From Cornus controversa (taxonomy: Eukaryota; Streptophyta; Magnoliopsida; Cornales; Cornaceae), in NCBI GenBank assembly GCA_026545225.1, contig CM048854.1, positions 26,208,730 through 26,272,729 of the forward strand: a DNA stretch of 64,000 bases, written 5' to 3'. The notes beneath the pieces are model-generated. The model was not told where the DNA came from. It saw only the letters and a program-made list of their open reading frames with translations, and did not search any database. Positions 478 through 57,100 of this stretch are shown here, in pieces (positions within the stretch are counted from its first letter, which is position 1; each line of letters begins with the position of its first letter). The position numbers were made by a program, and so were the translations under genes.

Positions 478-3022
478 TGTCACACTCCAAAATTCTGACT
501 GCCAAGACTCCACCGATCCGAGCCTGAACTCTAGGTAGTGAGGTATCATGATTGCCCGATCATCATTCCGTGATCTGAAAAATCGTGGCAAACTACTATC
601 AACATCACCCTCAGTTCCTACTCGAAACACCGAGATCATTATATACAACCGAAGTCTTTACATTATCGATATATTCATCATTTACTGGATATGTTATAAC
701 GATCAACCAATCTAAGTGGTTATCTCAAAATCAGCAGAAGCATTCATAACAACATTAACATCATACTTGCAAGCATACATAACCAATTCAAATACACTAG
801 AGATATCACTTAATGAAAACATGTATGCACAAGTTCATTCACAATCCTTAGTCTCTACAACTTTTTGTACGAATCGAAACCATCATTTTGCATAATCGAA
901 GTGCTACTTTCACACAATCAAAATAAAGGTTTCGCATAATCGTTGTATTGAAGTCCTATCAAAGTTTTCAAAATTCAGGATCTCACACTTGTAATTTTTT
1001 GCACAATCAAAACCTCAATTTCGCACAATTGAAAATTTCGATCGTGCGAAACAGGAGTTTCGCACAATTAAAATCATCTCCTGCAGAATTTTTAGCAACT
1101 TAACATTTTGGTCATTTTTGATCTAATGTCCCTCATTAACACATCTATACATCACATCTCACATACGTATCAACATAACCATTCTCACAAGTTTATACAT
1201 GTGAAAATAAACAAAAATACATGGATTATCATTTAAATCATCTAGCAGTCTACTATGCTTATAATGTATAAAATTATAAGTCATGAACGACACATGTTTA
1301 AGAACGTACTTAAACGTATACATTTATAAAACATAAATAATATATGTTCTCAAAACATAAATAGTCATTACATGTTGTCATATGCATATAATCCACAATC
1401 CAGGTATGCATTCAAATAAAGTAATATGAGTCTTTAAATGAAACCAAGATATTCTCCATGCCAATACTCTATTCGGGAGACTCCATCACCTTTTTCTCAT
1501 TTCTTAAAAAATATTAATTCTCAAGGGATAAGCAACCACACGATCAGTAGAAATGTCTAAAACATAATTTTGCAAGCTCTGTGAATACTACATAAACATA
1601 CATTTGCATTTAATCATGTTAACCAAATATTCACATATCACAATCGTATCATAAGCAACGTATAAATATGACATGATATGCACAACTCCCTCATCCTTTC
1701 CACACATCCATTGGGTTTCGATTTTGTGGGCCGACTAATCCCACTTAACCGAGGTTCTAAAGTCGATTTACCTCATCAGAAGACTCCATTTTAGGGAGTA
1801 TTCTCTTCCATTATAATACAGAGCCCCAATTAAGGATCACTCCACAGGGTTCCAAAGCTGGATTGTCCCATATGGATTTATAACGAATACCATGCCACCT
1901 CAAGAGGGCCCTCAACTCAATTGAGCTCACCACCCTCACCAAACCAATGATGATGTATCCCATATATTCATATTCACAATTCACTCAATATAACAATAAT
2001 AATCATGTTTGCACATTTCCCCAAATAATGTCTCATGCATTCACATTGAACATGTTACACATTTTTAACATTTCATATCAATTATATTGACAATTAAACA
2101 TGCACTATAATTAATCATGCTTTCAAGACATTTCATCAAACACATAAGTGTCATTTTCACAATTGCACATATATACACATAATTATCCGATAATTCAATC
2201 TCAACATGATCACATCATTATCTAATGCAATTATAAACATGTAATACAACATTAGACAAAGATAATTCATCAATTGGCATATTTAAGCATGTTTTACTAT
2301 TGAAAAATATCTAATTACCCACATAACCAATTGGTTGCCTTAACAACTAATATACTCATAAAAATTCCAAATTCTATAGGTTAGGCATCCCTACCTCAAT
2401 TTAGAAGAGCTTCCAAATGATTTCTCCAATTCTCTTAAAAATTAACTTTCTTTGAAATTGATTTTGGATGGATCAAGCTCGAGCCTTTAGTGTGTTGACT
2501 GTTCTCTCTTCATTGGGTAACTCTAATTATGGACTTAAGTCCCTCAAAACAATGGGGAAGGGAAGAAGAACATGTAGCTATATATAGATATATGTATATT
2601 GCTCTATTCAACTGAGGAGAATGAGAAATGAGGATGGGACATTCTCTCTTGCTATTTATAGAATTTAACCTACACTTCTTTACAAAAATAATACTACCTC
2701 TCTACTAAACCTTCCTGCGCTCAGTTTTTGAGTTCCGTAACTCCGTTCGACACAAAATCGATTCCGTAGCGTGTCAAATATTTTATTTAAGTCACTCTCA
2801 AAATTTGGAGTCATTCTAACTCTTTCAATTTTTTGGGCCCACAGGCCTGCATCCTGGGTCAATCGGGCCCGAAAAAGTAACTTTTGTCAAACACTCTAAA
2901 AAGTTTCTCAAACGTTAAATAAGTTTTTCTAAACATTTATTTTACATTTAAAACACATATATAGTTATCCAAAGCATTAATATGACAATAAATGAAATTG
3001 AAGGAAAACCGACCAAAAATGA
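478..3022 (-). mobile_element. Gypsy LTR, about 2.5 kb (5' LTR, minus sense)
   Basis: It begins TGTCACACTCC immediately after a primer-site complement. It runs with recognisable similarity to the LTRs at 53986-57951 and 33289-34661 and, in the other orientation, 5249-8012. The shared tail around 2700-2990 covers the FormTTCCG-like block and the long run before the terminus. The outermost bases expected at the right end are missing where it meets the next LTR near 3022. It is an old, broken copy. Confidence 0.7.
893..1075. repeat. Iterated word TTTCGCACAATCGAAA inside the LTR
   Basis: About seven degenerate copies of a word with self-complementary ends (TTTCG...CGAAA) lie near 893, 915, 932, 997, 1018, 1039 (inverted) and 1057. 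They are spaced by about 15-70 bp. Related LTRs carry different words at a comparable place. Confidence 0.65.
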
Positions 3023-3139
3023 CATTATATTTGGCATGTTGGGATTGCCAAGGCGTGTTGGGATCGTCTAATACCTAATAAGGTAGCTATGCATCATATT
3101 GGCATGTTGGGATTATCAAGGCATGTCGGGATCACCTAA

Positions 3140-4660: not shown

Positions 4661-6598
4661 CCTAATACCTAATAAAGTATCTATACATTATAATTGGCAT
4701 GTCAGGATTGCCTGCCTAATAAGGTATCTTTATATTTTATTTGGGGTATGTCAAGATTGCCTAATATCTAATAAGAAAGTTTCTCATTATATATTCAAGC
4801 ATGTTAGAATTGCTTCTTGTGTAAACTTAAAACTAGTCCGCACTTGCATTGAGATAACTAATGGGTTAGTGTAGTGTGTGGGGTGACTTTATTCTTGAGT
4901 CATAGGGTTAATTGGGTATATATTTATGAGCTAGTGGGTTATATATAATTGTATACAAACATAAATTTGATGTTTTGGGAAAGAATTATTAGTGGAGGCA
5001 GGATAGATTTGTCTAATACCTTATAAGACATTTGTAGAATATATAGAGGAAGGCATGGTGGAATTGCCTAGAATCTAATTAGAATACTTAGCGTGTTTAG
5101 GCATGTTAGGATTGCCTATGGTTTGAATTTAAAAATTTGTAATACCTTTATTGGGATAAAGGATGGGTTGGTTCGAAACATAGTTCTAATTATTTATAAG
5201 ATAGGAGATTAAATGATAAAATGGTATAGTTATATCTATATACTTTATTGTAGAGACCGTGACCAATTTTGGCCGATTTTTTAATTTTTTATCATTTTCG
5301 TTATAAACGCATTTCGAATGATGTTTTGGATGTTTCAAGAGTGAAAAACGTGATTGGAAGGTTAATTTAAAAATTTTAGAACATTTGGAGAAGTTTGACT
5401 TTTTGGTCAAATCGGGGCCCGGGAATTCGAGAATTTTTGAAAAATAATTATTTTTGATTTTGAGTGTAACGAAGTATTTAATGAGTTAAGGGAGTGATTT
5501 CGAGACCGTAGGAGTTTTCAAAATAAAAAACGGAGCCCAAAAATGTACGTTAAGTGACTTAAGGGCAAAATGGTCATTTACCCTTGGTGAGGTGTGATAT
5601 ATATAGATATATATTGCTGGGGCAGAGGTGATACATACAAATTTCAGCCATTGAAGGCCCTTTATCTTCCCCAAACTTCCTTCTTGGTTTTCATCACTTT
5701 AAAGTGTGATTTGGGGTTTGTCTCAAGAGAGAAAGCTTCCCCTCTCTTCCTCCTCTATATATTGGTGGGTTCAAAGTCCTCCAAGTGAGAGTTTTGAAAA
5801 TTGAGGACCATTAAAGTTTGTATTTGAAATTCGTCCAAGAAGGAAAGTGTGTTCTCCTCGACCCGATCTACTGTTCTATGAAAAAAAATCACAATTTTGA
5901 CAAACTTGGAGTTTGGTGATTTTTGAAGATTGCTTGGAAGGATTCCAAACTTGAGGTAGGGGTATTCTCTCCATCTTATCATCGATTTCTTAGGAATTAA
6001 TGTGGGTTGTGTTGTTTAGCATGTTTAGAATTGTTAGGATGTGGGTCTTACATTTTTAATTGGGTCAATTTATGTTAATTGATGATATTATTGAATTCAT
6101 GAGTATTGAATTGTGTTTATATGTTTAAATGTAGTTAATTGTGGAGGTATGCTGCCTTATAATATGATTTATAGTGTAGAGACCATGTTGTGTATAATGC
6201 ATGTTATGTGTTTGATAATATGAATGAAAATGATTATTTCCTTCAAATGGTGTTTTGTTATATACATGGAATCACATGTTTGAACATTTGAATTAAGTGA
6301 CTTATGATGTGCTTGAATTATGGAATTAATGTATTATTTTATGCATGAGATTACATGTGTTAACATGGAAGTTAAAAGGCTTATGATACACTTGAATTGT
6401 GGAACTGTTGCATTGTGATATGTATAGAATTACATGTTTTAGCATGTGGATTAAGTGGCTTATGATGCACTTGAAATTATATGTGTTGCCATACTTGAAA
6501 CCTATGTGACAGGTTGTTGATTTTGGGAGTAAGTCAGAAATGAAAAATGGCTCTAAGCCCGGAACTTAGCCAAGGAATTTTGTTTAGATTTTAGGGTT

Positions 6599-6718
6599 AG
6601 TAGCCCGTGAAGTAGAATATTTAAGTTTTGTCTAGACCCTCGAGTTTTAGCCCGTGAAGTAGAATATTTGGGTTTTGTCTAAACTCTCGGGCTTTAGCCT
6701 GTGAAGTAGAATATTTCA
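6599..6718 (+). repeat. Local tandem repeat, period about 49 bp, 2.5 copies
   Basis: A block with the core AGCCCGTGAAGTAGAATATT starts near 6602, 6650 and 6698. The related LTR at 53986-57951 has this region without the reiteration, so the expansion looks copy-specific. Confidence 0.7.
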
Positions 6719-7542
6719 GAAAATTGCTCAAAAAACTTTTGACCCGCGACCTATGACTACTCCCACCCTTGTGTGATTTTGAAAGTTATGTGATTTGGTG
6801 CCTAAGTGTTATTGTTGAATTGTGATATTCATATTGACATTGTATGGCATTTTCATTGAAATTGAGTAATATTGAACATGTTTTCTATTTAAGCTTTGAA
6901 TTGAAACTCCTTTGAGCATGTGCATTGAAGTATGCTATATATTGTAGGAATGCCATGATAATATTTCACGTGTATTGGGAGTATGCCATGTAGTATAGGA
7001 ATGTCATGCTTATATTCATGTAAGTCACATCGAGTCGATGTATAGGTTGGTTAGGGTATCTTTACTGAGCCGTTGTGGTGCTCACCCCTTTCTCCCCCAA
7101 ACATTTTTCAGGTAGAGTATTGAAAATGAATGCAAAGGACTTGTTTAGCTACTTGGAGCCATTGGTGCATCTTGAAGCATTTTAAAATTTTGTGCACAAA
7201 TTGTGTATATTTGGCTATCCATGCCGACATGTGGCATGTGACCTTGTTTTAAGATTGTAGTTACGTTTATACATATATGTAACTTGTGTAACACATTTGG
7301 ACCTTACATATCTGAACGATGTGGGGATATTATGAATGTATATTGAACCATAGGATTTTTATGAAAAAGTATAAAGATTATGGGTTCATGACATTTCAAA
7401 TGCACATTTTGGACTATGTGTTATATATCATTTCTTGATGATTAGAACTTTGTTGGATAAGTTCTATGTATTGGAAAGGTTGAAATATGAGCATTGGGGT
7501 AAATTTTGGTCAAAATGGTGTAAAATGGGGTTTTCAGGCTCA

Positions 7543-7668
7543 ATTAGTCGACTGATTCCTTTCTATAAGCCGACTATCGTTGATAGAGCATTTTAGAGCT
7601 TTATAGAGCAGCAAAGTAGTCGACTGATTCACTTAATAAGTCGACTGATGCACTTATAAGTCGACTAA
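7543..7668. repeat. Iterated palindromic word AGTCGACT in the LTR
   Basis: The word AAGTCGACTGAT occurs near 7545, 7615, 7639 and 7661, with a degenerate copy near 7568. The spacing is about 22-45 bp. The 8-bp core is a perfect palindrome. The array lies in the last 500 bp of the LTR, downstream of the presumed promoter. Confidence 0.75.
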
Positions 7669-8692
7669 TACAGATTTTAATAGACATAACTTGGTCATTT
7701 CAAATCCGAATCAATCGATTCTTTTGTTGAAATTGAGTATTTTTAAATTCCTTTTTCCAATGATTTTAATTTCAGTATTTAATAATGAATGTATAAGGAG
7801 TTATGTGTCCGTACTTGTGTAATAAGATTCCTTGGAAGGTTGTATGGCTTAGGCCCATTAAGATAACTTGTATATACCAGTGTATGTATGTGATTAAGCT
7901 TCCGTGGTATTTAAAGGTGAAAATGGTTCATTAGGGATTAATGAATGGGTTCACACTCGGGATTCGAGTCGGTCCGGGGGAGTCCTGGCGGTCTAGATTT
8001 CGGGGCGTGACATTTATTGTCCCTTATATAGAGGGTATGTTTATTAGTCCGCAGTCTCACCATTATTTATATTTGGCATGTTAGGATTACTTTTTTATAA
8101 TTATAATTTGTTATTATTCATTATTATATAAAATTGTTTATCAATTGCATTATAAGCATAGAATTTATGTATTTATCATGTAGTTTAGGTTGTTGGAATG
8201 GGAGTTGATTGGTTTATCAGTTCTTTGATTGGGATGTAGTAGAGAGGACTTGGTCGTGGGTTTAATCCACTTTTTGTTGATATTTCAGGTTATAGGTTGT
8301 TCCAGCCACAGAGTTGAATTTGGGATTCTTCTTAAATTCACGTGTCTATAGTCTATTCCAGTTGTTCATTGTAGGGACTCTATCTTTAATTATTAGATAT
8401 GTTACAATTTTGTAAACATTGATTTATAGATTTGGATTAGGGGTCCTTGGTTTACTGAATTTCCGAGTTGTATTTAATTGAGGATGTTGGTATATACTCC
8501 AAATTAAATTACAAAATAGTTATGGAGATTTATGGTTCAGGATTTATTATTTATTAGATTTTCTTTCTGCTATTAAATTTTCTCTTTATTGTATCTTATA
8601 CTCTATGCTTGTTTATTATCATGTGTTGGAATTTTTTAATTTTTTGTGTATAAGTCTGGCCAACTTATGCATGAAAATTAGGGGGTGTCACA

Positions 8693-14155: not shown

Positions 14156-16140
14156 TGTAATACCCTAAAATTTGAGGATATTTAATTTGGGGTTTTAATT
14201 ATTTAAATTTTTCATTTTGTGTTGTTTCAAATGTTTTAGTTAATGTTTGTGAATGTCTGTTCTTTGTTTTACTGAAAATTTGAGACAATTTCAGAAAAGT
14301 AAATTCAGACTTTTAAAAACAAATTTTGCACGGAAACCTAAGATTAGAGCTAGGTTTAGATACTTGATATTTAAATTGAGGTGTTGGCTTTATTCTGGGC
14401 TTTTCTTTTAATTAATTGTTTAATTTACTATAATTGTTTCTTTGCTAAATGTTCTTAATTAATTGTATGGTGTTTAAAACAGTTTATGTGAGTATGTTAA
14501 ACTCATTTTACGTTCATAGTACGTTGTGGTATTTTTATTTGTTTAAATTAATAAAGAGGATGATAGGATTTACATGATATTAATTAGCATACTTCTAAGT
14601 ATGTTAAATTTTTATTTAAATGTTAATTATTCAGGCGTGTCAAGATCGCCTAATACCTAATAATATATCTATGCATTATATTTGGCATTTTGGGATTACC
14701 AAGACGTGTCGGGATCACCTAATACCTAATAAGGTATCTATGTATCATATTTAGCATGTTGGGATTGCCAAGGCGTGTCGGGATCACCTAATATCTAATA
14801 AGGTATCAATGCATTATATTTGACATGTTGGGATTGCGAAGGCGTGTTAGGATCGCCTAATACCTAATAAGGTATCTATACATTATAATTGGCATATCAG
14901 GATTGCCAGGGTATGTCAGGATTGCCTAATACCTAATAAGGTATCATTATATTTTATTTGGGGCATGTCAGGATTGCCTAATATCTAATAAGAAAGTTTC
15001 TTGTTATATATTCGAGCATGTTAGGATTGCTTCTTGTGTAAACTTAAAACTAGTCCGCACTTGCATTGAGATAACTGATGGGGTAGTGTAGTGTGTGGGG
15101 CGGCTCTATTCTTGAGTCACAGGGTTAATAGGGGATATATTTATGAACTTGTAGGTTATATTTAATTGTATATAAACATAAATTTGGTGTTTTGGGAAAA
15201 GATTATTGGTGGAGGCAGGATAGATTTGCCTAATACCTTGTAAGACATTTGTAGAATATATGGAGGAATGAATGGTGGGATTTCCTAAAATCTAATTAGA
15301 AAACTTAGCGTGTCCTGGCATGTTAGGATTGCCTATGGTTTGAACTTAGAAATTTGTAATACCTTAATTGGGATAATGGATGGGTTGGTTCGAAACATAA
15401 TTCTAATTATTTATAAGATAGGAGATTAAATGATAAAATGGTATAGTTATATCTATACTTTATTGTCCCTCATATATAGGGTATGTTTATCAGTCAGCAG
15501 TCTCACCATTATATATATATATGGCATGTCAGGATTACCTTTTTATAATTATAATTTGTTATTATTCATTACTATGTAAAATTGTTTATCAATTACTTTA
15601 TAATCATAGAATTTGTGTATTTATCATGTAGTTTAGATTATTGGGATGTGAGATGATTGGTTTATCGGTTCTCTGATTGGGATGTAGTAGAGAGGACTTG
15701 GTCGTGGGTTTAACCCACTCTTTGTTGGTATTTCAAGTTATAGACTGTTCCAACCACAGAGTTAAGTTTGGAATTCTTCTTAAATTCACGTGTCTATAGT
15801 CTATTCAAGTTGTTCATTGTAGGGACTCTATCTTTAATTATTAGATATTTTACAATTTTGTAAACATTGATTTATGGATTTGGATTAGGGGTCCTTGGTT
15901 TACTGGATTCCTGAGATGTATTTAATTGAGGATGTTGGTATATACTCCAAATTAAATTACGAAATAGTTATGGAGATTTATGGTTCAGGATTTATTATTT
16001 ATTAGATTTTCTTTCTACTATTAAATTTCTTCTTTATTGTATCTTGTACTCTATGCTTGTTTATTATCATTTGTTGGCATTTCTTAATTTTTTGTGTATA
16101 AGGCTAGCCAACTTATGCATGGAAATTAGGGGGTGTCACA
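14156..16140 (+). mobile_element. Gypsy solo LTR, about 2.0 kb
   Basis: It runs from TGTAATACCC to GGGGGTGTCACA and is the best-preserved copy in the window of the LTR family also seen at 3023-8692 and 60223-62876. Neither a polypurine tract on the left nor a primer site on the right adjoins it, so it stands alone. The flanking pentamers (GTACC and ATTTT) do not match, so an ectopic exchange or decay is likely. Confidence 0.75.
14634..15060 (+). repeat. Minisatellite of the word GGCATGTYAGGATTGCC with TAATACCTAATAAGGTAT
   Basis: At least ten copies of the word lie near 14634, 14681, 14702, 14753, 14772, 14822, 14841, 14890, 14909, 14961 and 15013, with scattered extra copies near 15213, 15316 and 15522. 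Long and short units alternate. The word has inverted ends (GGCA/TGCC), and the linked ATACCTAATAAGGTAT is a 6-bp stem with a 4-base loop. The related LTRs at 3023-5248 and 60223-62876 carry shorter arrays. Confidence 0.85.
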
Positions 16141-19100
16141 ATTTTTATGCCATTTTTGGACACTTTTATTTAAAGTGTCCACGTTTCTAAATATTTAAAT
16201 TACTTAATTTACGTGTTATCATTCAATGCATGATTAGTTGTTCAATTCATGTTTTCTCATTTAACACATGCTAGTTGTTCAATATATGTTCGAATCATGT
16301 TTTATCATTCAACTCATGTTTAGAATTTCAATGCATACTCAATTATATGTTTAGTTGTTTAATCTATGTTTTCTTATTCAAATCATGCTCACGTACACTT
16401 ATGCCTACTTGTTCATATACTCAATTGCTCTTATGTTTACATACTTCTATGTTTCAAAACATGCTTTCAATCAATCCTCACATGATGATATGCTCACATG
16501 TTTTTATATGCTTTCAATAAATTCTCACATTCTGATATACTCACATATTTTTACATGATTTCAATAAATTCTCATAGGATGGCATGCTCACATGATTTCA
16601 AACATACTTTTGAAAGAATGCTCACATGATTTTACATGCTTTCAATACATGCTTACATGATTACTTGCTCACATGTGTCTATACATATTTACAATACATG
16701 CTCATATACTAAAATACATGTTTTCTTTTTCAACACCTGCCTATATGCTTAACCTCCATATATGTTAACACCATAGGGATTCTAAGCACAGCTCAACTTC
16801 CATACATGTTAAAGCCTTCGGAATTTTAAGCACACCTCAACTTCCATACATATTAAAGCTTAGGGATTCTAAGCACACTTTCCATTATTAAGCTCATTCC
16901 CTAGGATAATTCCAACTTCTTAAACAACCCATTGAGCTTAAATCTTGTTTGAGTCTCATGACTCATTTCATTCCAATTCAAAAATGGTCACGGGGACCTT
17001 AAACCCACTTAGCTTATATCTCGTTTGAATCCCATGACTCATTTCATTCCAACTCAACACGGTTACGAGCACCTTAAACCCATTGAGCTTATATATCATT
17101 TGAATCCCATGATTTATTTCATTCCAACTCAAAACAGTCATGGGGACCTTAAATCCATTGCACTTACATTTTATTTGAGTCTTCGACTCATTTCAATTCA
17201 AGAACGGTTATCATACATACACTTCATTCGAGTCCTCAACTCATTTCAATTCAAAAATTGTTAGGGGACCTTAAACCCATTGCGCTTACACTTCATTCAA
17301 GTCTTCGACTCATTTCAATTCAAGAACAGTCACGGGTGCCTTAAACCCATCAACCTTTAATATCATTTGAGTCTTCGACTCATTTCAATTCAAGAATGGT
17401 TACGGATACCTTAAACCCTGCAAGTTCCAATTTCATTTAAGTTATCGACTTATTCCAATTCAATTTATGGCCACGAGGACATTCAACCCATTGAGCTTTA
17501 ATATCATTCGAGTCTTTGACTCATTTCATTTCAGAAAACGGTCACGGGGACCTTAAACCCAATGCACTTTCAATATCATTCGAGTATTTGACTAATCCTA
17601 ATTCAAGAATGTTCACGGGGACCTTAAACCGATCGACCTTCAATATCATTCGAGCCTTCGACTCATTTCAATCCAAGAACGGTCATGGGGACCTTAAACC
17701 CATTTAGCTCAAATTTTATTCAAGTCATCGATGCATTTCAATTCAATTTATACTTACAAGGACCTTAAACCCATCGAGCTTTAATATCATTCGAGTCTTT
17801 AACTTATTTCAATTCAGGAAATAGTCACGGAAACCTTAAACCATTGCACTTTCAATTTCATTTAAGTCTTCGACTCATCCCAATTCAAGAACGGTCACGA
17901 GGACCTTAAACCCATCGAGCTTTAATATCATTCGAGTCTTTTACTTATTTTAATTCAGGAATCGATCACAGGGACCTTAAACCAATTGCCCTTTCAATAT
18001 CATTCAAGTCTTCGACTTATCCCAATTCAAGAATGGTTACGGGGAACTTAAACCCATTGAGCTTCAATAATATTTGACTTTTTGACTCATTTGAATTCAA
18101 GAACAGTAACGGGGACCTTAACCCATTTTGTTCATATTTCATTCGAGTCATCAACTAATTTTAAATTAGAACGATCATAGGGACCATAAACCCACACTCA
18201 ATTCAATTCACGATCACGGGCACCATAACCCGATCAAGCTTCAATATCATTCGAGTCTTCAACTTATTTCAATTCAATCACGAGGACCTTAAACCTACCG
18301 TGCTTACACTTCAACTCATTTTAACTCAACATGGTCACGGGGACCTCAAGCTCATTTCACTTCAGCATCATTCGAGTCATCGACTCATCCTCAACTCAAA
18401 ACGGTCACAGGGACCATAAACCCATACTCATTCTTAACTCAGAATGGTCATGGGGACCATAAACCCACTCTCAATTCAAAACAGTTATAAGGACTATAAC
18501 CTAGGGAACAGTTACAAGGACCATAAACCCAATCTCAACTATGAACGGTCATAGGGACTATAAACCTTCTCTTAATTCAAAACAGTCGCGGGGACCTTAA
18601 CCTAGGAAACGATCACGAGGACCCTAACCTAAGAAACGATCGTGGGATCCTTAACATAGGAAACGGTCAGAGTGACCTTCACCTAGGAAACGATCTTGGG
18701 GACCTTAACCTAGTAAACGGTCATAGGGACGTTAACCTAGGAAATGGTCACAAGAAACATAAACATACTCTTAACATAGTAACGGTTATGGGGGGACCAT
18801 AAACCCACTTTTAGTTCAGCAACGGTCACAAGGACCTTATACCCCTTCAACCGAACTACGTTTGACCTGATCCTTAGATAACCCCAAGGTACGTAGGCAA
18901 TCTGGACAGTCTCAAATTCGGTCCCACCATCATCATAATTCCTATTCATTCATAGTAATTTCCTCCATATTTCATGCGTTTGACCTAATTACCTTCATCG
19001 GGATACGTAGGCAGCTTAGGCGACCTCAGGTTCGTTCATATTTCCCATCCAACTCCCACTCTTCTTTCTTCCTTTTATAAATATATACATATGCATATTA

Positions 19101-22238: not shown

Positions 22239-23566
22239 TGTGAGTTGTGCAGTGCGGAAGCGGCTGTAAAAGTTTGATTAAAACCTAGAGGGGAGTGAAT
22301 ACGGTTACTTGCTCGTTTGCTTAATTTTTTAGATTATCCCAAATTTTAAGTCCAATTTAAATTAAAGCAATTCCATAAAGAAAGTAAATAAATAAAGTGT
22401 AATAAAGCAAAGAATGCACCAGATATACGTGAAAAATCGAGATCGAAAAAAACCACGGGTGAGGCTTGTCGCCCCGGAAAACCAAATCCACTATCATCAA
22501 AGCAAAGTATAACAGACTTTATCCCAAACTCACATCATCTCTATTTTGAATAGAACTTGATGCGCAATGCCTCAGGCTTACTCTTACGACTCCCTAGTTC
22601 AATTGTTGCAAACTTTCGGCTAACGTCACAATTCTTTTAGAAGAGTAATTGGAAGAACACGAACACTCAGCAAGTATTTTATCCCCTTTTAAATGTGATC
22701 TTCATTTCCCTCCTCGCCAATGAACAATTGTAGAAAAAATCAAACGATCCAATAACTTGATATATAAGAAATCTCTAAAGCAGTCGTTGAATGATTGATC
22801 AAGCAAAGAGAGAAACACAACCTAAATCTCTCATATTGTATATATGTGTGTGATCTCTCAAAGAAACATAAACAAAAATTAAAGAAGAATTCTCTATCAC
22901 AAAATATCTCTATGTTTTCTCTCTCTAAATATAATATTTTCGATGTGTATTCAAAGCTCTATGAGAGAAAATTCAGATGATGTTTTTACAGATGTTAAAA
23001 ATCCAAATTTTTCTTGAAAAAAAAGTTTAAAATCACTAGGAAATGAATTACAAAGTTTAAGAAAATTTTATAGCCAAAAGCTATATCAGGAGGCTTGGAC
23101 CGGTCCAACCCATACTTGGACTAGTCCAGGGCTCTACCCCGCAAGGATTGAAGTTCTGAGACTTCATGGACATGTCCAGGGTTGAGCTAGACCAGTCCAA
23201 CCTTGAATTTTATGAAAAATAACCCAAAAATCCTAATTTTCAAGGTTGGAACCTCCGATTTTAAAATATGTGTTTTCACCACTTTAATGGACTACATGAC
23301 TTTCACACTTTATAGTGATGTCCACAGGCAATTGAAACCATCTGAAAACTTTAATCGATCAAACCCTTGTTCAATGCATTGATGCCTTTTTCTAAAGTGT
23401 CAACCTTCATGCCTTTGAAGATCATTTGCATGGTTGGTGTAGAACACTATAATCACTCTTAGTCTTCAAATGTATAATAAAGTACAAGAATATAAATGAA
23501 AGATTACAACTTAATCATACTAAGTTTTGACACCGAACATTGCCAATTATAAATTTATATGTCACA
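22239..23566 (-). mobile_element. Copia solo LTR, 1.33 kb
   Basis: The ends TGTGAGTTG and ATATGTCACA match the LTR at 42269-43455, whose adjacent primer site shows that sense is minus. The flanks GAGAG (22234-22238) and GAAAG (23567-23571) are a decayed 5-bp duplication. No internal sequence adjoins it. It carries the GGACYRGTCC word array at 23090-23205. Confidence 0.8.
23090..23205. repeat. Word array GGACCGGTCC in the Copia U3
   Basis: Four versions (GGACCGGTCC, GGACTAGTCC, GGACATGTCC and AGACCAGTCC) are spaced by about 25-45 bp. Three are perfect 10-bp palindromes with different central dinucleotides. Equivalent arrays occur at 26340-26450, 33125-33235 and 44655-44765. Confidence 0.8.
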
Positions 23567-31406: not shown

Positions 31407-31410
<4 letters not shown>

Positions 31411-31454: not shown

Positions 31455-31455
<1 letters not shown>

Positions 31456-33288: not shown

Positions 33289-34661
33289 TAAAATTCGAAC
33301 CACCGGGACTCCCTCGGACCAACTTGAATCCTGAGTGCGAACCCGTTCAATCAACCCCATGAAAGACCTTAATCACACTCATGTGATAGTATCAAGCTCT
33401 AATACCATGTTGTCATGCCCCAATTTCTAACACTCGATTAAGAGCGAGGGAAATGAGGGTGAATAGTGAAATCCAATCGATTTACATTCATAAATCTCTC
33501 ATTTTCATAAATAAACTTCTTGTGTATTTTAAATCTCAGCTTGAATCTTATGTGAATGGAAAGAGAGTTCAAAAATAATCAATTTCAAAAAAAAGAATCA
33601 TCAAATTTTGATTTAAAACAGAGAAGATATGGTTGCTTGAAGTTGGGCAAAATTTGGTCAAGGTCTGCAATAAAAGTGATCGAGCGTCATAGAAAAAGAG
33701 ATCATGCGCATTCACTCTGGAATATAAACTTCTAGGGCATTTTACAAAGGCAATCGAGCCCCGTAAAAAGCAATCGAGCGCTGTTAATGCTGAGGCTAAA
33801 ATCCTGCAACCCAGGCTTATCCAATTTTCACCCTAACTTCAAATCATATTATCTCTCAATCCGTAAGTCCATTTGATCCAAAATTTGACATGGATCATCA
33901 TCAATTTAATCAAACAATTAATCCACAAAACCTAATATAATCATATATAACATGCATGCACCTATTTTAAGCTAATAACATGAAATTAAACTTGAAATAT
34001 AAGACACAACGTACACCCCCTACCTCAATAGCTATAGTTTCAAGCTATTTCTTACTTTACTCAAAAAAATAAACTTCTTAGAAATTCATTCCAGACCAAC
34101 CAAACTCAAGCCCTCGTTGTATAGACCGTTTCTTCTTTCTTCGGCGAACTCAAATTCCCACCTGAAGTCCCTCTAAATTGATGAAGAAAGGAAAAAAAAG
34201 ATGAAGCTACATATATGTGTGTGTATATATATATATGTCCCTCACGGCTACTAGAAATTCAAAATGAAGATATGAATCCCCTCTTTGCTATTTCAAGCAA
34301 AATGACCTACACTTATTTACAACAATGCCATTACTTTTCCCTAAACTTTTCTGGACTCATTTTCAGAGTTCCGTATTTCTAATTGACACGAAATTATTTT
34401 TGCAGCGCATAAAATATTTTATTTAAGCTACCCTCCAAATTTGGAGTCATTCCGACAATTTTGGATTTTCTGTATCCCTAGGTCAATCTGACTCGAAAAA
34501 GTCAACTTTGGTCAAACGCTCCAAAAATTTTCTCAAACCTTAAATACATTCTCTAAACATGTATTTTACATTTAAAACACATATATAATTATTTAAAGCA
34601 TTAAAATGACAATCAAATAAAAATGATAAAAAATCGGACAAAAGTGGTCAAAGTCCTTACA
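33289..34661 (-). mobile_element. Gypsy LTR (3' LTR, minus sense) of the composite
   Basis: Runs from TGTCATGCCC to GTCCTTACA, 1373 bp, and belongs to the family of 53986-57951. The adjoining pol tail on its right shows that it is a 3' LTR in minus sense. A GATCGAGCG-type word array lies at about 33675-33795, and a TA-rich promoter-like run at about 34222-34237. Confidence 0.75.
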
Positions 34662-38864: not shown

Positions 38865-38965
38865 TGCGACCGGTCCTCATATTTGGGGACCGGTCCAACT
38901 TCTTTCTGTTCCTCAGAACTTGCAGAAGTGCGACCGGTGCTCAATAATGGGGATCGGTCCAACTT
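38865..38965. repeat. GACCGGTCC word array upstream of the Copia extra ORF
   Basis: GACCGGTCC near 38869 and 38891 and degenerate versions (GACCGGTGC, GATCGGTCC) near 38939 and 38953, in two pairs. It lies 220-320 bp upstream of the ORF start (minus sense), with a TTTTAAATCCC run between. Confidence 0.75.
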
Positions 38966-40117: not shown

Positions 40118-42196
40118 CTAGTTAGGGGGTTTTGCACCCAAAGACCTATTAGGAATAAATCCCATAGTATCAACAGACACAAACTTCTCCAAATCTTCCT
40201 TTTTCATCCAGATAGTTTTAACATGCAATTTATCAGGAAAGAATTGTGGAGAAACAAAAACATTCTTCTTTTTATTTGAATTCTTTTTATCTTGAGAATT
40301 TTTTGGTTTGTTCCAATAATGTGGTTTTTTAGCATGAACCCTATTCTTAACAAAAGAATTATGTACATGAAAATCAGAATTAGAATGTTTTCTCTTTTTA
40401 TAGTAATAGTGTTGACTATGTCCAGTCTTACCACAAAAAGTACAATAAAGCACATTGGACACAACTTTAGCATGCACAGACTCAACTTGAGACTTAGGTT
40501 TGGGTTCAGACACAATCAAATTCTTGGGTTTAACAAAAACAGTTTTTCCCTTAGACGATAACCCAACAAAACCTAATCCAGTTTTATCTCCTACAGGCTT
40601 ACCAACACTAATCATGCTATCAAGCTTAATCTGCCCAGAAGTAAAAGCAATTAATTTCTCTTGTGATTTTCTCAATTCAGACTCAAGAAAATTAATTCTA
40701 GCAATAAGAACATCTTTAGCAGAAATAGCTTGACTTACCTCGCTTTCGAGAAACTTGACTTTGCCTTGAAGATTCAGAATTTCAGCTTTACTTTCTTCAA
40801 TCAACTTCACTTGATCTTCATTCTTTTTCTTCAATGTCTCTTTCTCAGATTTTTCTTGCTTCAGCTTCTCAGATTTTTTATTCTAAGCTTCTAGCAATTT
40901 CTCAAACAGTTCTGGCAGCTTGCTGTCACATGGTTCTACATCAGACTGCTCATCTTCTGAATCATCAGACCCTACTTGACTGAGAGTAGTGTACATCTCT
41001 GTTTCACCTACATCAGAGGAAGAATCATTAGCAGTATCACCATTCAATAAAGCAACAAAAGCAAGAGAGTCATTCTCAACTGAAGAATCACTATCAGAGT
41101 TAGAAGATTCAGACTCAGAAATAATAGCTTTCATAACTTTCTTGTTTGAAATTTTCTTTGCACTAAAGCTATTTTTCTTAGGACTTGGACATTGATTAGA
41201 TGTATGACCTTTACCACCACATGTCCAACAAGTAACCTCAATTTCCTTAGAGTCATCTTCTTTCTCTTTCCTTTCCTTACCTTTGGATGATGAGCTTTAA
41301 TTCCGGAATTTAGAAGAATTTCCTTTTCTCAAATTTTTACCTTTTTCATATTCAAAAATCTTTCTAAATTTCCTAGCAAGGAGTGCAACATCATTATCTG
41401 AATCATATTCAAACCTTTCAATTTTTTTAACTTCAGATTTTGAAGAATTTGAACAATTTGACAAACTTGAAGACTTTGAAGTCTTTGATATTTTTAAAGC
41501 CAAATTTTTTGATTTCTGAAGCTTTGGATATTTCATCTCAAAAGTTTGAATTGATCCAACTAACTCAGCCACCTCCATAGAATCTACATCTCTGCTTTCA
41601 TCTAAGGCTTCCAACTTAGCTTGGAACCTATCGGGCAATGATCTCATGATTTTTCTAATAATCTGAAAAGAAGGAATTTTCTCTCCAAGGTTAGCATTAC
41701 TTTGAACAATATCATTAAGCCTAGAATAAAAATCAGAAAATATCTCATCTTCATCCATTCTAATTGTTTCAAATTTAGTGGCAAGCATTTGTAACTTAGA
41801 TCTCCTTACCTTGGTGGTACCCTCATCAGTTACCTGTAAAATATTCCATGCTTTTTTCGAAGTGGAACACGCAGAAATTCTAGCAAATTCAGAAGGAACA
41901 ACAGAATTAAATATAGCATATAAACTCTTGTTGTTATTATTTGCATCTTCATGTTCAGCATTAGACCATGTTGCCTTATCCTTTTCTACAGTCACAACAG
42001 CATCACCATCACCAGTTGTAATGGTAGGAATTTTATAGCCATTCTCTACAGCCATCCAAACTCTCTCTCCTTGAGATTTTAAAAAGGCTTTCATGCGAGA
42101 CTTCCAGAAAGTATAATTTGAACCATCAAACAAAGGAGTTCGCTGAATCGATCTACCCTCTTTCATACTAGATTCCATAGTAATTTTTGAAAACAA
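40118..42196 (-). mobile_element. Copia gag region (UBN2-type, zinc knuckles)
   Basis: In minus sense it begins with an N-terminal gag segment having the hallmark RTPLFDGSNYTFWKSRMKAF. The middle gag helices follow (WNILQVTDEGTTKVRRSKLQ, then MRSLPDRFQAKLEALDES). Next come a lysine/serine-rich stretch, a CCHC knuckle of the type CWTCGGKGHTSNQC near 41190-41235, an acidic serine-rich spacer, a coiled-coil-like segment and a second knuckle-like CTFCGKTGHSQ near 40440. The region is broken. Confidence 0.8.
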
Positions 42197-42268
42197 AAAT
42201 AATTTTGATTAAAAAAAAACTTCGCAAGGAACTACTCACAAATTAGAGAACACTGCTATGATACCAAT

Positions 42269-43455
42269 TGTGAGTTGCGCGGTGCGGAAGCGGTTGCGAA
42301 AAGTATTTTAGAACCTAGAGGGGGGTGAATAGGATCACTTGCTCGTTTGCTTAATTTTTAATTAATTCAATTTTAAGTCCAATTAATTAAACAATTAAAG
42401 TAAGCAAATAAATAAAGTGCAAGTAAAGAAAAGAATGCACTAGATATACGTGGAAACCCAAGGCGGAAAAAACCACGGAGGGAGGCGGCACGCCTCAGGG
42501 AACCAATTCACTATGATGAAGCAAAGTACAACAGACTCAGTCTCAGTCTCACACCCCTCTTCACTCTGTCAAGGATCTGATGCGGAACACCTCAGGCTTA
42601 TGATTGCGACAACACGTCCAACTGCTGCAGACTTCCGGCTAACGTCACCACCCTTACAGAAAGGTTGCTGGAAGAACCAAAATACTCAGCAAGTATTTTG
42701 TTCCCTTCATAGTGCAATCTGGTCACCTTTCTTCCTCAGCAAGCAAGCAAGAGAAGAACCTTCAATCCAATGTTCTGATCAGCAAATAGATTTGATGCAG
42801 TCTCTGAGCAGCTAATTAGAAGTAGAACACCATCCTAAAAATCACTCGTGTAGTATGGATGTGTGTTCTTAAAAATATATAGCCCTAATTATACTGTATA
42901 TACTTTCTCTTTCTAAAATATTAATTTTTCAGGGCTCCACCTTGTAGAGAAAATATGAAGACATATATATAGGCAAGGAAGTCCTAATTCTACTTGGAAA
43001 AGAAGTTGAATACCAAAATAGAACTTTCCTAAAAGTTTCAAACCCAATAGGAATCAGAATTTCCGTCAAAAACTATTTCCTATTTGGAACAGGCTAAGTG
43101 GGACCGGTGCCAAATAAATAGGACCGGTGGGACTTTTTGAAAACCTGCAGAAACTAAACTACCGAGAAAAGTTGGATCAGTCCTAAATATTGGGGACCGG
43201 TCCTACTTTGAAAATTCCTAAAATTTTCATTTAAACCCTGATTTTTCAAAATAGGCTCGGAACTAAAAAGTGCAGAATGTCCTCACCATACGTACCTGTA
43301 CTATATGGTGTTCTAACTGATTTGTCGGCTTCCATGCACTTGAGTGTCAGCTCGAAGATGTCGATGATCGGTTACATAAAATATCATGAAACTTACAACT
43401 CGATCATTCAGGTTTTGATCACCAAAATATGCCAATTACAAATTTATATGTCACA
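42269..43455 (-). mobile_element. Copia LTR (5' LTR, minus sense)
   Basis: Runs from TGTGAGTTGCG to ATATGTCACA, 1187 bp, and is homologous to 22239-23566. A primer site adjoins its left edge. TATA-like CTATATATATG (minus) lies near 42966. The word array at 43085-43215 lies upstream of it in transcription sense. It abuts the PMEI remnant at 43456 directly. Confidence 0.85.
43085..43215. repeat. Word array GGACCGGTCC in the Copia LTR
   Basis: GGGACCGGTGCC, AGGACCGGTGGG, GGATCAGTCC and GGGACCGGTCCTAC lie near 43100, 43122, 43174 and 43196, roughly 100-250 bp upstream of the presumed TATA box in minus sense. Confidence 0.8.
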
Positions 43456-43671
43456 ATTTACACTATCACAGAACATGCAAGGGGTGATGTTCAAAACGGC
43501 TTCGCATGCCTGAATATGGATTTAGCAGCAATCCTAATGGCACTTGATCGTTGTGACCGTTCGACTTTGGATTTTGCAGGTGACCTCGAGGATCTAGCCA
43601 AGATATATAACACCACCATCATGGATTTGACTCGCGACTACATGTCCTTTTATGAAGCTTTCTTCAGTTAG
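43456..43671 (+). pseudogene. PMEI-like pseudogene, copy 3 (C-terminal half)
   Basis: Homologous to codons 87-157 of copy 1, from the segment reading IYTITEHARGDVQNG to the tail YEAFFS and its stop. The 5' half, signal peptide, promoter and C79 equivalent are gone. The Copia LTR terminus lies immediately upstream and the displaced 5' part is not found on the other side of that element. The retained part is in frame and keeps the second Cys (C119 equivalent), with changes such as a Cys in FACLNM and Asn in YNTT. No start codon of its own is supported. It is a gene fragment, not an expressed small gene. Confidence 0.85.
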
Positions 43672-44099
43672 ATACATTAATTAATTCTCTCCATCTAAAT
43701 AAAGCACGTTTCATATATATACACCCACACACGTTAATTATTATATATCTAACTCATTCATTATTGTTGGGTGGCTCAATAGGGCTGATCATAATCATGT
43801 TTAATAATAAGAAGAAGAAGATTTGGCATATAATTATTCATTAGAATTCATTCCCCTTTAATTTTTGGTTTTTACTTCCTTACACTTATTATTAATGGTT
43901 TATATTTTCTCTTATGAAATCTTAAATTGTTGTTTGAACACTTTAATTATAAGATTGTCTTGCCTTATCAAAAAACATAATTTGATACTTTGTTTGATTT
44001 GGCTAAAGCATCAAAACCAATAGAAGTATAGTTTATTGACCTCACTCTATGTACGTAAAGGTAGTTTCAAAGCATTGTTTTCATTTATTCATTTTTAAC
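43672..44099 (+). other. 3' flank of PMEI copy 3
   Basis: Collinear with the 3' flanks of copies 1 and 2. No further gene is seen. Confidence 0.6.
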
Positions 44100-44807: not shown

Positions 44808-45990
44808 TGTCACGTCCCAGAATTCGGACTATTAGGACTCCCCGGGACCAACCTAAATCCCGAGTGTGAACCCGTTCACTCAACCCCATGAATGACCTTA
44901 ACCACACTCATGCGATAGTATCAAGCTCTAATACCATGTTGTCATGCCCCGATTTCCAACACCCAATTAAGAGCGAGGGAAATGAGGGTGAATAGTGAAA
45001 TCCAATCGATTTACATCCATAAATTGCTCATTTTCAGAACTTAACTTCTTATGTATTTTGAATATCAACTTGAATCTTATGCTAATGGAAAGATGGTTCA
45101 AAAATAATCAATTTTAAAAAAAGAATCATCAAATTTTGATTTGAAGTAAAGAAGATATTCCTAACAAAATTTGGTCAAGGTCTGTTGTAAAAGCGATCAA
45201 GCATCGTAAAAAAAGAGATCGATCGCATTCACTCCAAAAGGTAAACTTCTGGGACATTTTACAAGGGTAATCGAGCCCCGTCAAAAATGATCGAGCGCTG
45301 TTAATGCTAAGGCTAAAATCCTGCTACCGAGACTTAGCCAATTTTCACCCTGACATCAAATCCTATTATCTCTCAAGACGTAAGTCCGTTTGATCCGAAT
45401 TTGACATTGATCAATATCATCAATTTAATCAAACAATTAATCCACAATACCTAATATAATCATATAAAACACGCATACATCTATTTTATGCTAATAACAT
45501 GAAATTAAACTTAAAATGTAAGATACAACACACACTCCCTACCTAAATAGTTATAGTTCCAAGCTATTCCTTACTTCACTTGAAAAACTAACTTTCTTAG
45601 AAATTGATTCCAAACCAATCAAACTTGAGCCCTCATCACGTAAATCATTTCTTCCTTCTTCGGCGAACTCAAATTTTCACTCGAAATCCCTCTAAATTGA
45701 TGAAGAAGGGAAGAAGAAGATGAAGCTACATATGTGTGTGTGTGTGTGTGTGTGTGGCCCTCACGACTGCTAGAAATTCAGAATGAAGAGATGAATCCTC
45801 TCTTGGCTATTTACAGTACAATGACCTACACTTATTTACAACAATGTCATTTTTTTTTCTAAACTTTTTCGAACTCATTTTCGGAGTTCCTTAATTTCGA
45901 TTAACATGAAATTGATTCCGTAGCACGTAAAATATTTTATTTAAGGTACCTTCCAAATTTGGAGTCATTCTGACAATTTTAGATTTTCTG
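44808..45990 (-). mobile_element. Gypsy LTR fragment, unit 3
   Basis: Starts TGTCACGTCCC right after GTCGGG, at the same site as the Gypsy LTR in unit 2 (33289). It stops before the LTR terminus, at the joint with the next element. The GATCGAGCG-type word array lies at about 45190-45310. Confidence 0.75.
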
Positions 45991-50248: not shown

Positions 50249-50857
50249 ACTACCTGCTCGGTTTGCATCAAGACACATCCCAAACCATCTCATGAAGGAT
50301 CACAATAGATAACATACCCCAAACCACATTCAGGAATAATCAAGATTAGAGCAGAAGTAAATCTACTCTTTAGCTCTATGAATACATGTTCACAAGCCTC
50401 ACACCACACAAATTTTACCTCCTTTGGAGTGAGTTGTGTCATAGGTGCCGCCAATCATAAAAAATTCCTCACAAAGCTTCTGTAGTACCTGGCTAAACGT
50501 AAGAAACTACGGATCTCAAATACACTCTTCGGTCTTTCCCAACTCATCATAGCCTCAACCTTTGAAGGATCCACGGAGACTCCTCCTCCCGACACTACAT
50601 GCCCGAGGAACTTCACCTCCGTTATCCAAAATTCACATTTCTCATACTCGTCATACAATCGATGTTCCCTCAAAAGTTGTAACACAATCCTCAAGTGTTC
50701 CTTATGCTCCTCCTCCGATGATAAGTACACTATGATGTCATCCACAAACACCACAACAAATCTATCCAAGTAAGCACTAAAGACTCGATTCATCAAGTCC
50801 ATGAAAGCTACTGGTGCATTCGTCAAACCAAATGGCATCACTAGGAACTCGTGGTGT

Positions 50858-53985: not shown

Positions 53986-54085
53986 TGTCACGCCCCAATT
54001 CTTGACTCTCAAAAATTGAGGGTGAACCTGTCCATTTAAACCTTAATAAACCATTTTACCCTTTACATACCATGGAAGCTTAATC

Positions 54086-54129
<44 letters not shown>

Positions 54130-57100
54130 CTATAGAAATAACTCAACATCAACTAATCCCCAGGACCTCAACCATATAACACCTCAAGTGATTCCATCAC
54201 ACAAGTGCTGGTACATAATTTCTTGTAAGTTTTTAATCTATGTCTGAAAGTTAACCATGGGAAAGAGGTTTTAAAAATACTCAATTTTAAAAAAAGAATC
54301 ATCTAAATCCAATTTGAAACAAAAAAGATATGCTTGTTTGAAGTTAGGTAAAAATATAGTTGAACAATGCATGCTGTGAAAAAGAGAATCGATCACCCAA
54401 GGTCGACCGAGGCTGGTTTTTGTCCTTTTACAAGGGCAATCGATTGTCGTAAATAATGGAGATCGATCTCCATCAACGCCCAACAAAAATCCTGCAACAT
54501 TCACTTAGCCAAAATTTCACCTTAACTTCAATTTCGAATATCTCACAATCCGTAAGTCCGTTTGACTTGAAATTTTGCATGGATCATCCTCAACATGTCT
54601 AGTTTTTAACCCAATTTGAATCACCTAAAAATATGACTCAAAACCTAGATTACATGTAAATCAACGTCCATAGGTCAGATTATGAACTCCTATCCTAAAA
54701 CATGCATATCTTACTTAATTTAAATCCAAACAAGGCCAATGACCTATCAAATTGAAGCTAACACAATTCTCATTCTATACATATAAATTTCATTCATAAA
54801 AATAGATACTTTTGGGCACATGTCCCCCCCTAATGGCCATTCAAGTGCCTTAAATTTTCATCCAAAGCATTCATACATTCCATATGATTAACCTTTAAAT
54901 CATACACATGCTTGGACATTAATGTGAACATAATCCATCAACATGACCATTCTCACAAGTTAAACATGTAGAAATAAACTATAGAACCAAAATTCTACTA
55001 TGTAAACAAAAAAAGGTTCAATATAAATATAAATTCCATATCTTGTCCTCAATTGGTTTCAAGTGCCAAATATGGCTCACACATATATAATCCGAATTAC
55101 AAGTTTGATAAATGCCCTAACATAGCATATGAAAACATAACATAAATGATAACGAAGAAATATAAACATCATCGATCTATGGCTGGTGCCTTATCTGTAA
55201 AAATGATATGGGAAGGGGGTGAGCACCACGACGGCTCAATAGAAATACCCACCAACCTATACATCGACTTAACGTGGCCTATATGAATGCAAGCATGGCA
55301 TCCCTATACTATATGGCATGCTTCCAATGCACATGAAAAGTTATTATGGCATTCCTACGCTATATAGCATACTTCGATGCACATGCTCAAAAAGATTTCG
55401 ATTCAAAACTTAAATAGAAAGCATGTTCAACATTATTTACTTTCAAGGAAAATACCACGCAACACCATTATCATTATCACAATTCAATAATAACATTTAA
55501 GCACCAAACCAAATAAGTTTTAAAATCATACAAGAGTGGGAGTTGTCGTAGAACCACTGGATAATTACTGAATGATTCAATTATCCGTAATATCTATCTT
55601 GATGGGTGATCAACCCGAGGGTCTAAAAGGAATCAAATCTGACTTTACGGGCTACTAACTCGATGGTGTAAAGTAACCACCTTGGCCAAGTTTAGGGATT
55701 CGCACCCTAGGGATCTAAGCTCTCATTACTTTCCAACCTCCTTCCAAAATCAACAACCAATCACATAGGTTCAAGTATGGCAACACAAACAATTTCAAGC
55801 ACATTATAAGTCACTTAAATTATATGCTAAAACATGTAATCCCATGCATATAACAATGCAACAATTTCATGATTCAAGTGCATCATAAGCCACTTAACTT
55901 ATATGATAATACATGTAATCTCATACATAAAACAATACAATAATTCTTTAATTCGAGTACATCATAGTCACTTTATTCACATGCTAAAACATGCAAATTT
56001 ATGCACTTAACAATACAACATTGAAGGAGATAATCATGTTCATGCATATTATCAAACACATAACATGTATTATACACAACATGGTCTCTACACTATAAAT
56101 CATGTTATAAGACAACATTCCTCCATAATAAATAACTCTTAAACATATAAACACAATTCAATACACATGAGTTCAATAACATCATCAATTATCATGAATT
56201 GACCCAATTAAAAGTGCAAAACTCACATTCTAGTAATCCTAAACATGCTAAATAATACAACTCACATCAATTCTTAAGGAATCGATGATAAGATAGAGAG
56301 AATACCCCTACCTCAATTCCAAGCTAAAATCTTTCAAAAATTCAACTTTGTTTGAAGATGATTTTGATCAGACCAAACTTGAGCTCTTAACGCATAGATC
56401 ATTTCTTTCTTCTTTGGCTTATTCTAATTCTCACCTTAAGACCCTCTAATTTAATGAAGAAGAAGGAAGGTGATATAGATACATATATATAGATACATAT
56501 TTTATTTCAGGTACTCATAAGTCCACAAAACTTGCTATTTTATATCCTAAAATAAATTTTTAATTACTCTTTTATTTTATTTAAATATTCTTATCTTTGC
56601 ATTTCTTGTTTTATAGGAGTTGATTTCTAAATAAGAAGAAAGCAGCAAAAAAGGGTTAAAGAGGATATATATAGCCAAAGATGAACATAAGAGGAATTGT
56701 AGGAAAGATGGTATTCTATGTAATCTATTTTACAAGAGGTCTCAAGTTCAAAATTTAACAAAATATTTTTTTACATAGCCACGTCTGCAGTCCAGAATTC
56801 AAATTGAAGATATGGTGATCAAAAATTAGATATTTAAATTCAAAATTTTGTACTTTGAATTTTTGTTTTTAAATTTTATATTTTGAATTTTGTATTTAAA
56901 ATTTTTCCCACCTAAACCATTCTTCTCTAACTCTATAAATATGGGGTCTTAGGGGATGGTGAAGAGAGTTAGAAATTGTTAAAAAAAATAAAGTGGAGTT
57001 AGAAATTGTAGAAAAAAATAAAGTGTAGTTGAAAATATTTTCTTGTATTCATTTTCTTTTCTTCTAAACACACCTCTCATGGGAGTGATGAAGCCACTAT

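Follow-up and report, generated by a model that had tools for sequence, protein, structure and literature searches.

The 64,000-nucleotide stretch of Cornus controversa DNA analysed here (contig CM048854.1 of assembly GCA_026545225.1, positions 26,208,730 to 26,272,729; hereafter the window) is a nest of retrotransposons with long terminal repeats (LTRs), which we placed by self-comparison, primer-binding sites (PBSs) and LTR ends. A first-pass annotation of this DNA had proposed that each LTR family carries its own, mostly self-complementary word, repeated several times. These words fall in several distinct structures, namely the LTRs E, I, F/G, H and A, a tandem array, and the copia LTRs S1 and S2 (Table 1). 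On comparing the window with the host genome (771.7 Mb in 61 contigs), we find that the words stand in pairs, usually separated by 19-23 bp and often followed by the next pair after a further 44-53 bp, although the words themselves differ, and that one word, AGTCGACT, occurs in both gypsy and copia elements.

S1 is assigned to copia by its gag, and I is called gypsy-type from a relative, L045, which carries AGTCGACT in its LTR beside Ty3_capsid and Retrotrans_gag domains. A further group, T2 (the L052 group), turned up by chance when 30 loci were collected with LTR I as the anchor; we call it, as well as F and E, gypsy-type solely by LTR similarity or LTR ends. The reverse transcriptase fragment on the strand of LTR H matches RVT_1, a domain that is not gypsy-specific. 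We presume that LTRs I, H, F and E belong to the Tekay lineage, and similarly take the tandem array to be an Ogre/Tat-type LTR.

Table 1. LTRs, word blocks and associated features of the window (positions in the window; spacings in bp).
Feature	Positions	Strand	Remarks
PBS of LTR E, iMet-type	~463-474		
LTR E	479..3022	-	5' LTR of minus-strand element; LTR end then TTGGTATCAGAG; start inferred from junction with LTR A
Word block of LTR E	879..1075	-	TTTCGATYRTGCGAAA seven times, one inverted, several 22 bp apart; 48 genome matches
Solo LTR I	5249..8012	+	TTTAT on both flanks; nested in the 5' LTR of element A; target site and ends read
Word block of LTR I	7546..7666	+	AGTCGACT, four exact copies and one with 1 mismatch; spacings 22, 50, 21, 20
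Downstream anchor common to LTRs I, H, F, G and L052	7685..7780	+	
3' LTR A	14590..16140	+	End read, start approximate
Word block of LTR A	14634-15060	+	Dyad 17-mer in two forms per 69-bp unit
Tandem arrays	16926..18750	+	Units 70-75, 43, 101 and 27-81 bp; contain GAGTCTTCGACTC and GGTCACGGGGACC
Sirevirus-type LTR S2	22239..23566	-	End similar to S1; far start approximate
Word block of S2	23097..23198	-	GGACCGGTCC, GGACTAGTCC, GGACATGTCC, AGACCAGTCC; spacings 21, 50, 21
LTR F	33411..34661	-	LTR end and PBS read
Word block of LTR F	33675..33795	-	GCTCGATC-type, four times; spacings 20, 52, 22
Word block 3' of copia gag (probable linker)	38867..38960	-	GGACCGGTCC-type words, four times; spacings 20, 44, 20
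Copia gag open frames	40121..42208	-	Retrotran_gag_2, zf-CCHC; third piece without Pfam match
Sirevirus-type copia LTR S1	42270..43460	-	Start approximate; CA/ATTGG junction; C-rich stretch near end
Word block of S1	43101..43203	-	GGACCGGTCC-type, four times; spacings 20, 53, 20
LTR G	44940..45990	-	Apparent duplicate of the F insertion, copied along with a gene-like segment
RVT_1 fragment	50458-50904	-	Same strand as LTR H; link to H presumed
LTR H	53986..57950	-	PBS near 53971
Word block of LTR H	54385..54473	-	ATCGAT-centred words and GGTCGACC

The proposal that iterated, often dyad-symmetric words are family-specific holds genome-wide, and not only for the copies in the window, in the families sampled by word-free flanks or LTR ends (I, H, F and S2-type), a procedure that removes choice by the reader. 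These samples comprised 30 of the 40 loci listed among 535 candidates for I (the window copy and near-identical pairs such as L045/L046 included), 20 of the 41 listed among 816 for H (two then dropped, L101 with another insert upstream and L104 truncated), 20 of the 40 listed among 698 for F, and 20 of the 40 listed among 2830 for S2-type. Exact AGTCGACT was present in 29 of the 30 family I loci, at one to eight copies each. At up to two mismatches, the 18 H loci held 49 words like GCGATCGATC (1.25 in shuffled sequence), the 20 F loci 72 like GCGCTCGATC (1.2 in shuffles), and the 20 S2-type loci, sampled by their Sirevirus-type LTR ends, 44 like GGACCGGTCC (1.1 in shuffles), with GGACCGGTCC-type words in 16 of the 20 LTRs. 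Other samples were drawn with the block itself as query: 30 of the 40 loci listed among 2260 for S1, whose copies are nearly identical; 10 of the 40 listed among 106 for T2, plus L052; and 20 of the 48 places listed for E, plus the window copy. All 21 of the E-type loci found in this way held 7-10 words (0.1-0.6 in shuffles), with at least one inverted copy in each.

Within the window, GGACCGGTCC occurs ten times at up to one mismatch (mean 0.18 in 100 shuffles) and the E word seven times at up to four. Across four A-like stretches scanned there are 28 instances of GGCRTGTYRGGATYGCC at up to five mismatches, and positions 16900-18850 hold 18 of GAGTCTTCGACTC and 29 of GGTCACGGGGACC at up to four. 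CG-centred palindromes of at least 8 bp exceed shuffles in E (4 versus 1.0), I (5 versus 0.93), H (4 versus 0.99) and the copia linker (2 versus 0.31), with p ranging from 0.004 to 0.042; there was no such excess in F, G, J, S1, A, the tested part of S2 or the array, and eight control stretches held 0 or 1 each. The words had been described as unrelated in sequence, and they do differ between families, but AGTCGACT, GATCGATC and GCGCTCGATC have a TCGA core in common. An Rfam search gave no match at gathering thresholds, a pattern search of viral contigs gave 0 matches, and a protein search of GTDB contigs returned no relative.

How symmetric are these words? In the flank-sampled family I, AGTCGACT, an exact palindrome, is the 8-mer iterated most often (first of 251). 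In family H, ATCGAT ranks third of 239 among 6-mers and GATCGATC fourth of 69 among 8-mers, and in S1, a block-query sample of near-identical copies, GGACCGGTCC leads the 10-mers and ACCGGT the 6-mers. In the E sample no exact palindrome of 8 bp is iterated, but inverted arms flank a 6-bp centre; T2 likewise has none, with ACCGGT present at rank 9 of 121. The GATCGAGCG word is not a palindrome. A palindromic top 8-mer is a property of the family samples of I and S1 (own-block sample) and nearly of H, but not of E or T2; on single LTR copies the idea was not supported, most top iterated 8-mers being non-palindromic. An 18-bp perfect palindrome in the window copy of H, ATGGAGATCGATCTCCAT (54456-54473), was rejected as a feature of family H; the H relatives inspected carry GATCGATC-type words. 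Because the F word is asymmetric, E and T2 lack an iterated exact 8-bp palindrome, and the array, E and second A words show no paired changes, dyad symmetry in LTR words is a tendency and not a rule. The first-pass annotation was partly right: its LTR words are real, iterated and recurrent in the genome, but the F word is no palindrome and the array shows no paired changes.

Self-complementarity could also act at the level of RNA, the words pairing genomic RNAs (for dimerisation or packaging) or making hairpins in transcripts. Self-complementarity with a free choice of word fits a kissing contact of the kind used by retroviruses, and RNA folding z-scores against shuffles were low for S1 (-5.1), S2 (-5.5), the linker (-6.1), I (-4.0), one of two E pieces (-4.2) and one of two A pieces (-2.05), compared with -0.5 to 0.9 in four controls. 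Furthermore, the A 17-mer covaries, with 14 both-sided changes against 4.1 in shuffles among copies that are related. However, the scores were unremarkable for F (-0.3), H (-1.2), G (-1.8), the other E piece (-0.6), the other A piece (-0.3) and three array pieces (-1.0 to 0.2), and paired positions did not covary in the array words, the second A hairpin (ATACCTAATAAGGTAT) or the E word (176 E instances). As the A 17-mer alone covaries, covariation was rejected as proof of RNA structure in general. A repeated palindrome of any kind can pair with its own copies, which means that the z-scores follow from the words, and RNA pairing does not predict a spacing of 21 bp. An explanation at the RNA level seems improbable.

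The spacing, earlier given as a loose 20-70 bp, actually clusters at 19-23 and about 44-53 bp, plus some other steps. Measured centre to centre, it is 20/53/20 in S1, 21/50/21 in S2, 20/44/20 in the S1 linker stretch, 20 and 44 in T2, mostly 21-22 with 50 in I, 20 and 22-25 with 49-52 in F (20/52/22 in the window copy), 22-23 with 50-52 in H, 19 with 49-53 in A, and mostly 22 in E (91 of 155 steps). Genome-wide, AGTCGACT forms 1780 pairs with a gap of 5-35 bp, as against 59 for the reversed pattern. Among 50 plus-strand pairs (the first on contig C1 and so a non-random set, some from copies of one element), 38 are 19-23 bp apart, 28 of them at 22, and eight are at 40-43, within a possible range of 13-43. 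Of 16 AGTCGACT spacers compared, five resemble no other by more than 9/14. Two turns of B-DNA span 21 bp, so that dimer sites paired on the same side of the helix are the simplest reading. By eye, the two pairs in S1 are in inverted orientation relative to one another, unlike those of the linker, which suggests that word orientation is without importance.

Could this pattern arise as a by-product, with a unit around a chance word duplicated and homogenised within LTRs, giving symmetry and spacing without function? Iteration without symmetry does occur, in the 70-bp array of the window and in the asymmetric F word; the iterated 8-mers of single LTR copies point the same way, as does the enrichment of any-centre palindromes in two of the eight control stretches. 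A by-product would not, however, be expected to keep one spacing of 19-23 bp across different words, or to place an exact palindrome at the top of the flank-sampled family I, and we consider this origin unlikely.

The blocks also change independently of their surroundings. Alignment of I with L052 gives 91 upstream and 114 downstream of the block (shuffle maxima 33 and 32), and 13 in the block itself (maximum 24). Between H and F both flanks can be aligned, the block itself weakly (32 versus a shuffle maximum of 25); the base that precedes the core TCGATC is A in 48 of the 62 words from H and C in 65 of the 70 from F. Because the I/L052 block is unalignable between aligned flanks, while most H and F words differ by one base, words appear to change in two ways, by concerted substitution (H versus F) and by replacement of the whole block (I versus L052).

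The concerted change between H and F looks like the turnover of VANC motifs, and raises another possibility: that the words are anti-silencing sites, where an element- or host-encoded factor binds and removes silencing like VANC at VANDAL arrays, word and protein changing together. VANC motifs are alike in being short, dense, family-specific and jointly changing (PMC5735166; PMC10398659). VANC21 motifs, however, are arrayed in one orientation, and 'palindrom' is absent from the main text of PMC5735166; furthermore, a partner protein that each element encodes for itself fits poorly with the occurrence of one word in both copia and gypsy elements. We regard an anti-silencing role of this kind as quite unlikely.

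Two word types cross the boundary between superfamilies: ACCGGT blocks and AGTCGACT words each occur in a copia and in a gypsy-type LTR of the host genome. The words had been thought free to change, and they do differ between families, but these two recur. The T2 LTR resembles I and H in both flanks (83% identity to I over 173 bp and 76% to H over 202 bp) and ends in a primer site. Its block in L052, compared with the copia S1 block, scores 65 against a maximum of 26 in 500 base shuffles, and ten further T2 copies match; with the words masked, the spacers of T2 and S1 remain similar (p<=0.006 in 10 of 10 copies). Outside the block, S1 gave no match better than an E-value of 0.15 in the five LTRs compared. 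From these alignments we infer that at least the ACCGGT block has passed between a Sirevirus-type copia and a gypsy-type LTR, or that both took it from a common source, the direction and route of exchange likewise being conjectural.

For AGTCGACT, six stretches out of the 1780 pairs were viewed in context, of which L155 and L157-L160 are without superfamily assignment. Directly behind the AGTCGACT-bearing LTR of L156 come a CA/ATTGG primer site and then copia gag, integrase and an RVT_2 copia reverse transcriptase (L161), and the word reappears 4.2 kb downstream (L162). With the words masked, L156 resembles seven of ten I-family blocks at p<=0.02 and three not. Because spacer similarity is weaker than for ACCGGT, the presence of AGTCGACT in both superfamilies may equally well mean that they use one host factor in common or that the block was transferred.

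With moderate confidence, we favour the reading that the block is a cis-regulatory cassette which can be interchanged and which offers paired sites to dimeric DNA-binding factors, because the words are often symmetric, paired at about two helical turns and CpG-containing, and lie both in LTRs and 3' of gag/pol. Such a cassette would be a block of about 100-150 bp between alignable flanks, in which short, often dyad-symmetric words stand in pairs, mostly 19-23 bp apart and often 44-53 bp from the next. The paired sites would lie on one face of the helix, bound by dimeric DNA-binding proteins, and the cassette would most likely control LTR transcription or chromatin state. A family could then change its word in nearly all sites together, as between H and F, or have the whole block replaced, as between I and L052. 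Protein binding and a regulatory role are what we infer from sequence. More tentatively, and with rather less confidence, we suggest that there may be a common pool of helically phased, palindromic cassettes, swapped as units between copia and gypsy elements, in which the word marks the cassette and not the lineage and a swap would bring a one-step change of regulator or an escape from silencing. If so, the control core of plant retrotransposons would be a module able to move across the copia/gypsy divide and built on a simple grammar (dyad word, 21 bp, dyad word). This would help to explain why LTR control regions may fail to align between close relatives, would make the bound factors findable by DNA affinity purification sequencing for each word, and would make it possible to test directly what lets elements switch tissues or silencing state.

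Several observations weigh against this cassette reading. The F word is asymmetric, with no symmetry beyond TCGA; any-centre palindromes are enriched in control stretches too (p 0.006 and 0.024 in the two concerned); and four of the 20 S2-type loci have no GGACCGGTCC-like word at all. Because other steps occur (12 and 25 in I; 14 and 38 in H; 16, 28 and 38 in T2; 17-18 and 60-71 in E), phasing on one helix face is not strict. The LTRs I, H, F and T2 share flanks and are not independent, so that their spacing may come by descent, and duplication of a two-word unit could by itself give the copies within a family their equal spacing. As for exchange, the gypsy status of T2 comes from the similarity of its LTR flanks and not from coding sequence, the window linker was not significantly similar to T2 with the words masked (six tested), and the L156 LTR shows no match to S1 or S2. 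Masked spacer similarity for AGTCGACT was also weak elsewhere, reaching p<0.05 in 5 of 10 comparisons for L162, 4 of 10 for L157 and 0 of 10 for L158. Finally, TATA-like stretches lie downstream of the S1 block (near 42970, about 130 bp away) and of the I block, with another upstream of the latter, and the gypsy blocks may stand either upstream or downstream of the transcription start.

Further features of these LTRs and of the window were recorded. The long stretch in which LTRs I and H are most conserved (5951-7092 versus 55212-56316, 77%) starts near GAGGTAGGGGTATTC and ends near TTTTTCAG in I, and resembles an intron-like stretch of an LTR leader. In the dropped H locus L101 (C2:33284780-33285180, reverse, first 200 bases), an iterated near-palindrome, TCTCGATTGATCGAGA, and its variants recur at steps of 37, 21 and 38 bp; they sit in an apparently unrelated insert. 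At C2:36118503-36119434 the LTR H flank occurs three times at exact 410-bp steps, a tandem amplification of an LTR piece. A 1.5-kb repeat is present three times (3140-4662, 48741-50249 and 50860-52364); the first reads TGATAGGC...GAATCA, lies inside LTR A with CCTAA on both sides, and is probably a solo LTR of a further family. LTRs F and G were rejected as independent insertions by self-comparison: the further copy of the GATCGAGCG block at about 45194-45314 looks like one insertion duplicated with a gene-like segment. This segment occurs three times (24343-26499, 31168-34472 and 43456-45990), and because two of the copies share the F/G insertion, the insertion seems older than the segment duplication. 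Signal-peptide-like open frames lie in these segments at 24736-25323 and 31654-32124; the first, without a Pfam match, may be PMEI-like. Short elements resembling terminal-repeat retrotransposons in miniature (12755-13326 and 35133-35965, the latter apparently tandem) have LTR-like repeats of about 250 bp, an iMet-type primer site and about 64 bp between the repeats, and at 60534-60689 a 156-bp inverted repeat around an (AT)n centre is 98.7% identical to its own reverse complement.

The first-pass annotation knew of no named system for such words, but the copia part is already known as the repeated motif (RM) boxes of Sireviruses, because Bousios et al. (2010; PMC2829016) list 13 Sireviruses with a palindromic RM, mostly different between elements, with 12 different motifs. 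There the boxes, in at least eight copies, lie upstream of the TATA box in LTRs and in the linker before the ENV gene, and are called Sirevirus-specific and absent from classic copia elements. S1, S2 and the L156 element look like copia elements of this sort. S1 has copia gag downstream (Retrotran_gag_2, 2.1e-23; zf-CCHC, 2.7e-05), the CA/ATTGG junction followed by TATCAGAGC (here CACAATTGGTATCATAGC, in which the nonamer has one mismatch), a C-rich signal near the LTR end (TTCACCCCCCTCTAGG, read by eye), and four motif copies in the LTR plus four in the linker stretch, which lacks LTR similarity, at up to three mismatches, which reach the eight of RM boxes only when degenerate copies are counted. 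Unlike the CGG...CCG order of RM boxes, which one published RM (Tnd-1) also lacks (PMC2829016), the S1 and S2 words have a CCGG core, that of GGACCGGTCC. We place I outside copia by the Ty3_capsid and Retrotrans_gag of L045, H by the RVT_1 match on its strand, and F and T2 by their LTRs. Their blocks would resemble RM boxes in working, by analogy, and we do not class them as Sirevirus RM boxes.

Other systems share parts of this picture. In the Tnt1/Retrolyc1 subfamilies most of the element is common and the regulatory U3 region differs, a 'modular evolution' (PMC1838419) that is like the alignable parts found here around a differing control region; that system, however, is copia only, 'palindrom' is absent from the main text, and the available text describes no exchange with gypsy elements. 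The motifs of VANDAL21, which change together by repeat turnover in noncoding DNA (PMC5735166; PMC10398659), are similarly short, dense and family-specific, but VANDAL21 elements are DNA transposons with a known element-encoded binding protein, and the motif is not called palindromic in what is available of PMC5735166. In maize, a single host, Sirevirus palindromes (CACCGGACNNNGTCCGGTG) cluster in copia LTRs, as in S1 and S2, with an excess of small RNAs (PMC10760457), and are small-RNA hotspots (PMC5311732, PMC10760457). There, CACCGGACNNNGTCCGGTG is also the most abundant motif in structured regions of maize Helitrons (PMC10760457), which may, by analogy, hint at sharing. The open-licence literature gave no such blocks in gypsy LTRs, no 21-bp pairing and no exchange with copia, in a search too small to prove absence. 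The available text of PMC2829016 states no word spacing for RM boxes and places them in Sireviruses, whereas equivalent blocks occur here in gypsy-type LTRs and their paired spacing has been measured. To the first-pass annotation the analysis adds the spacing of the pairs, the unalignable block within alignable flanks, and the presence of two word types in both superfamilies.

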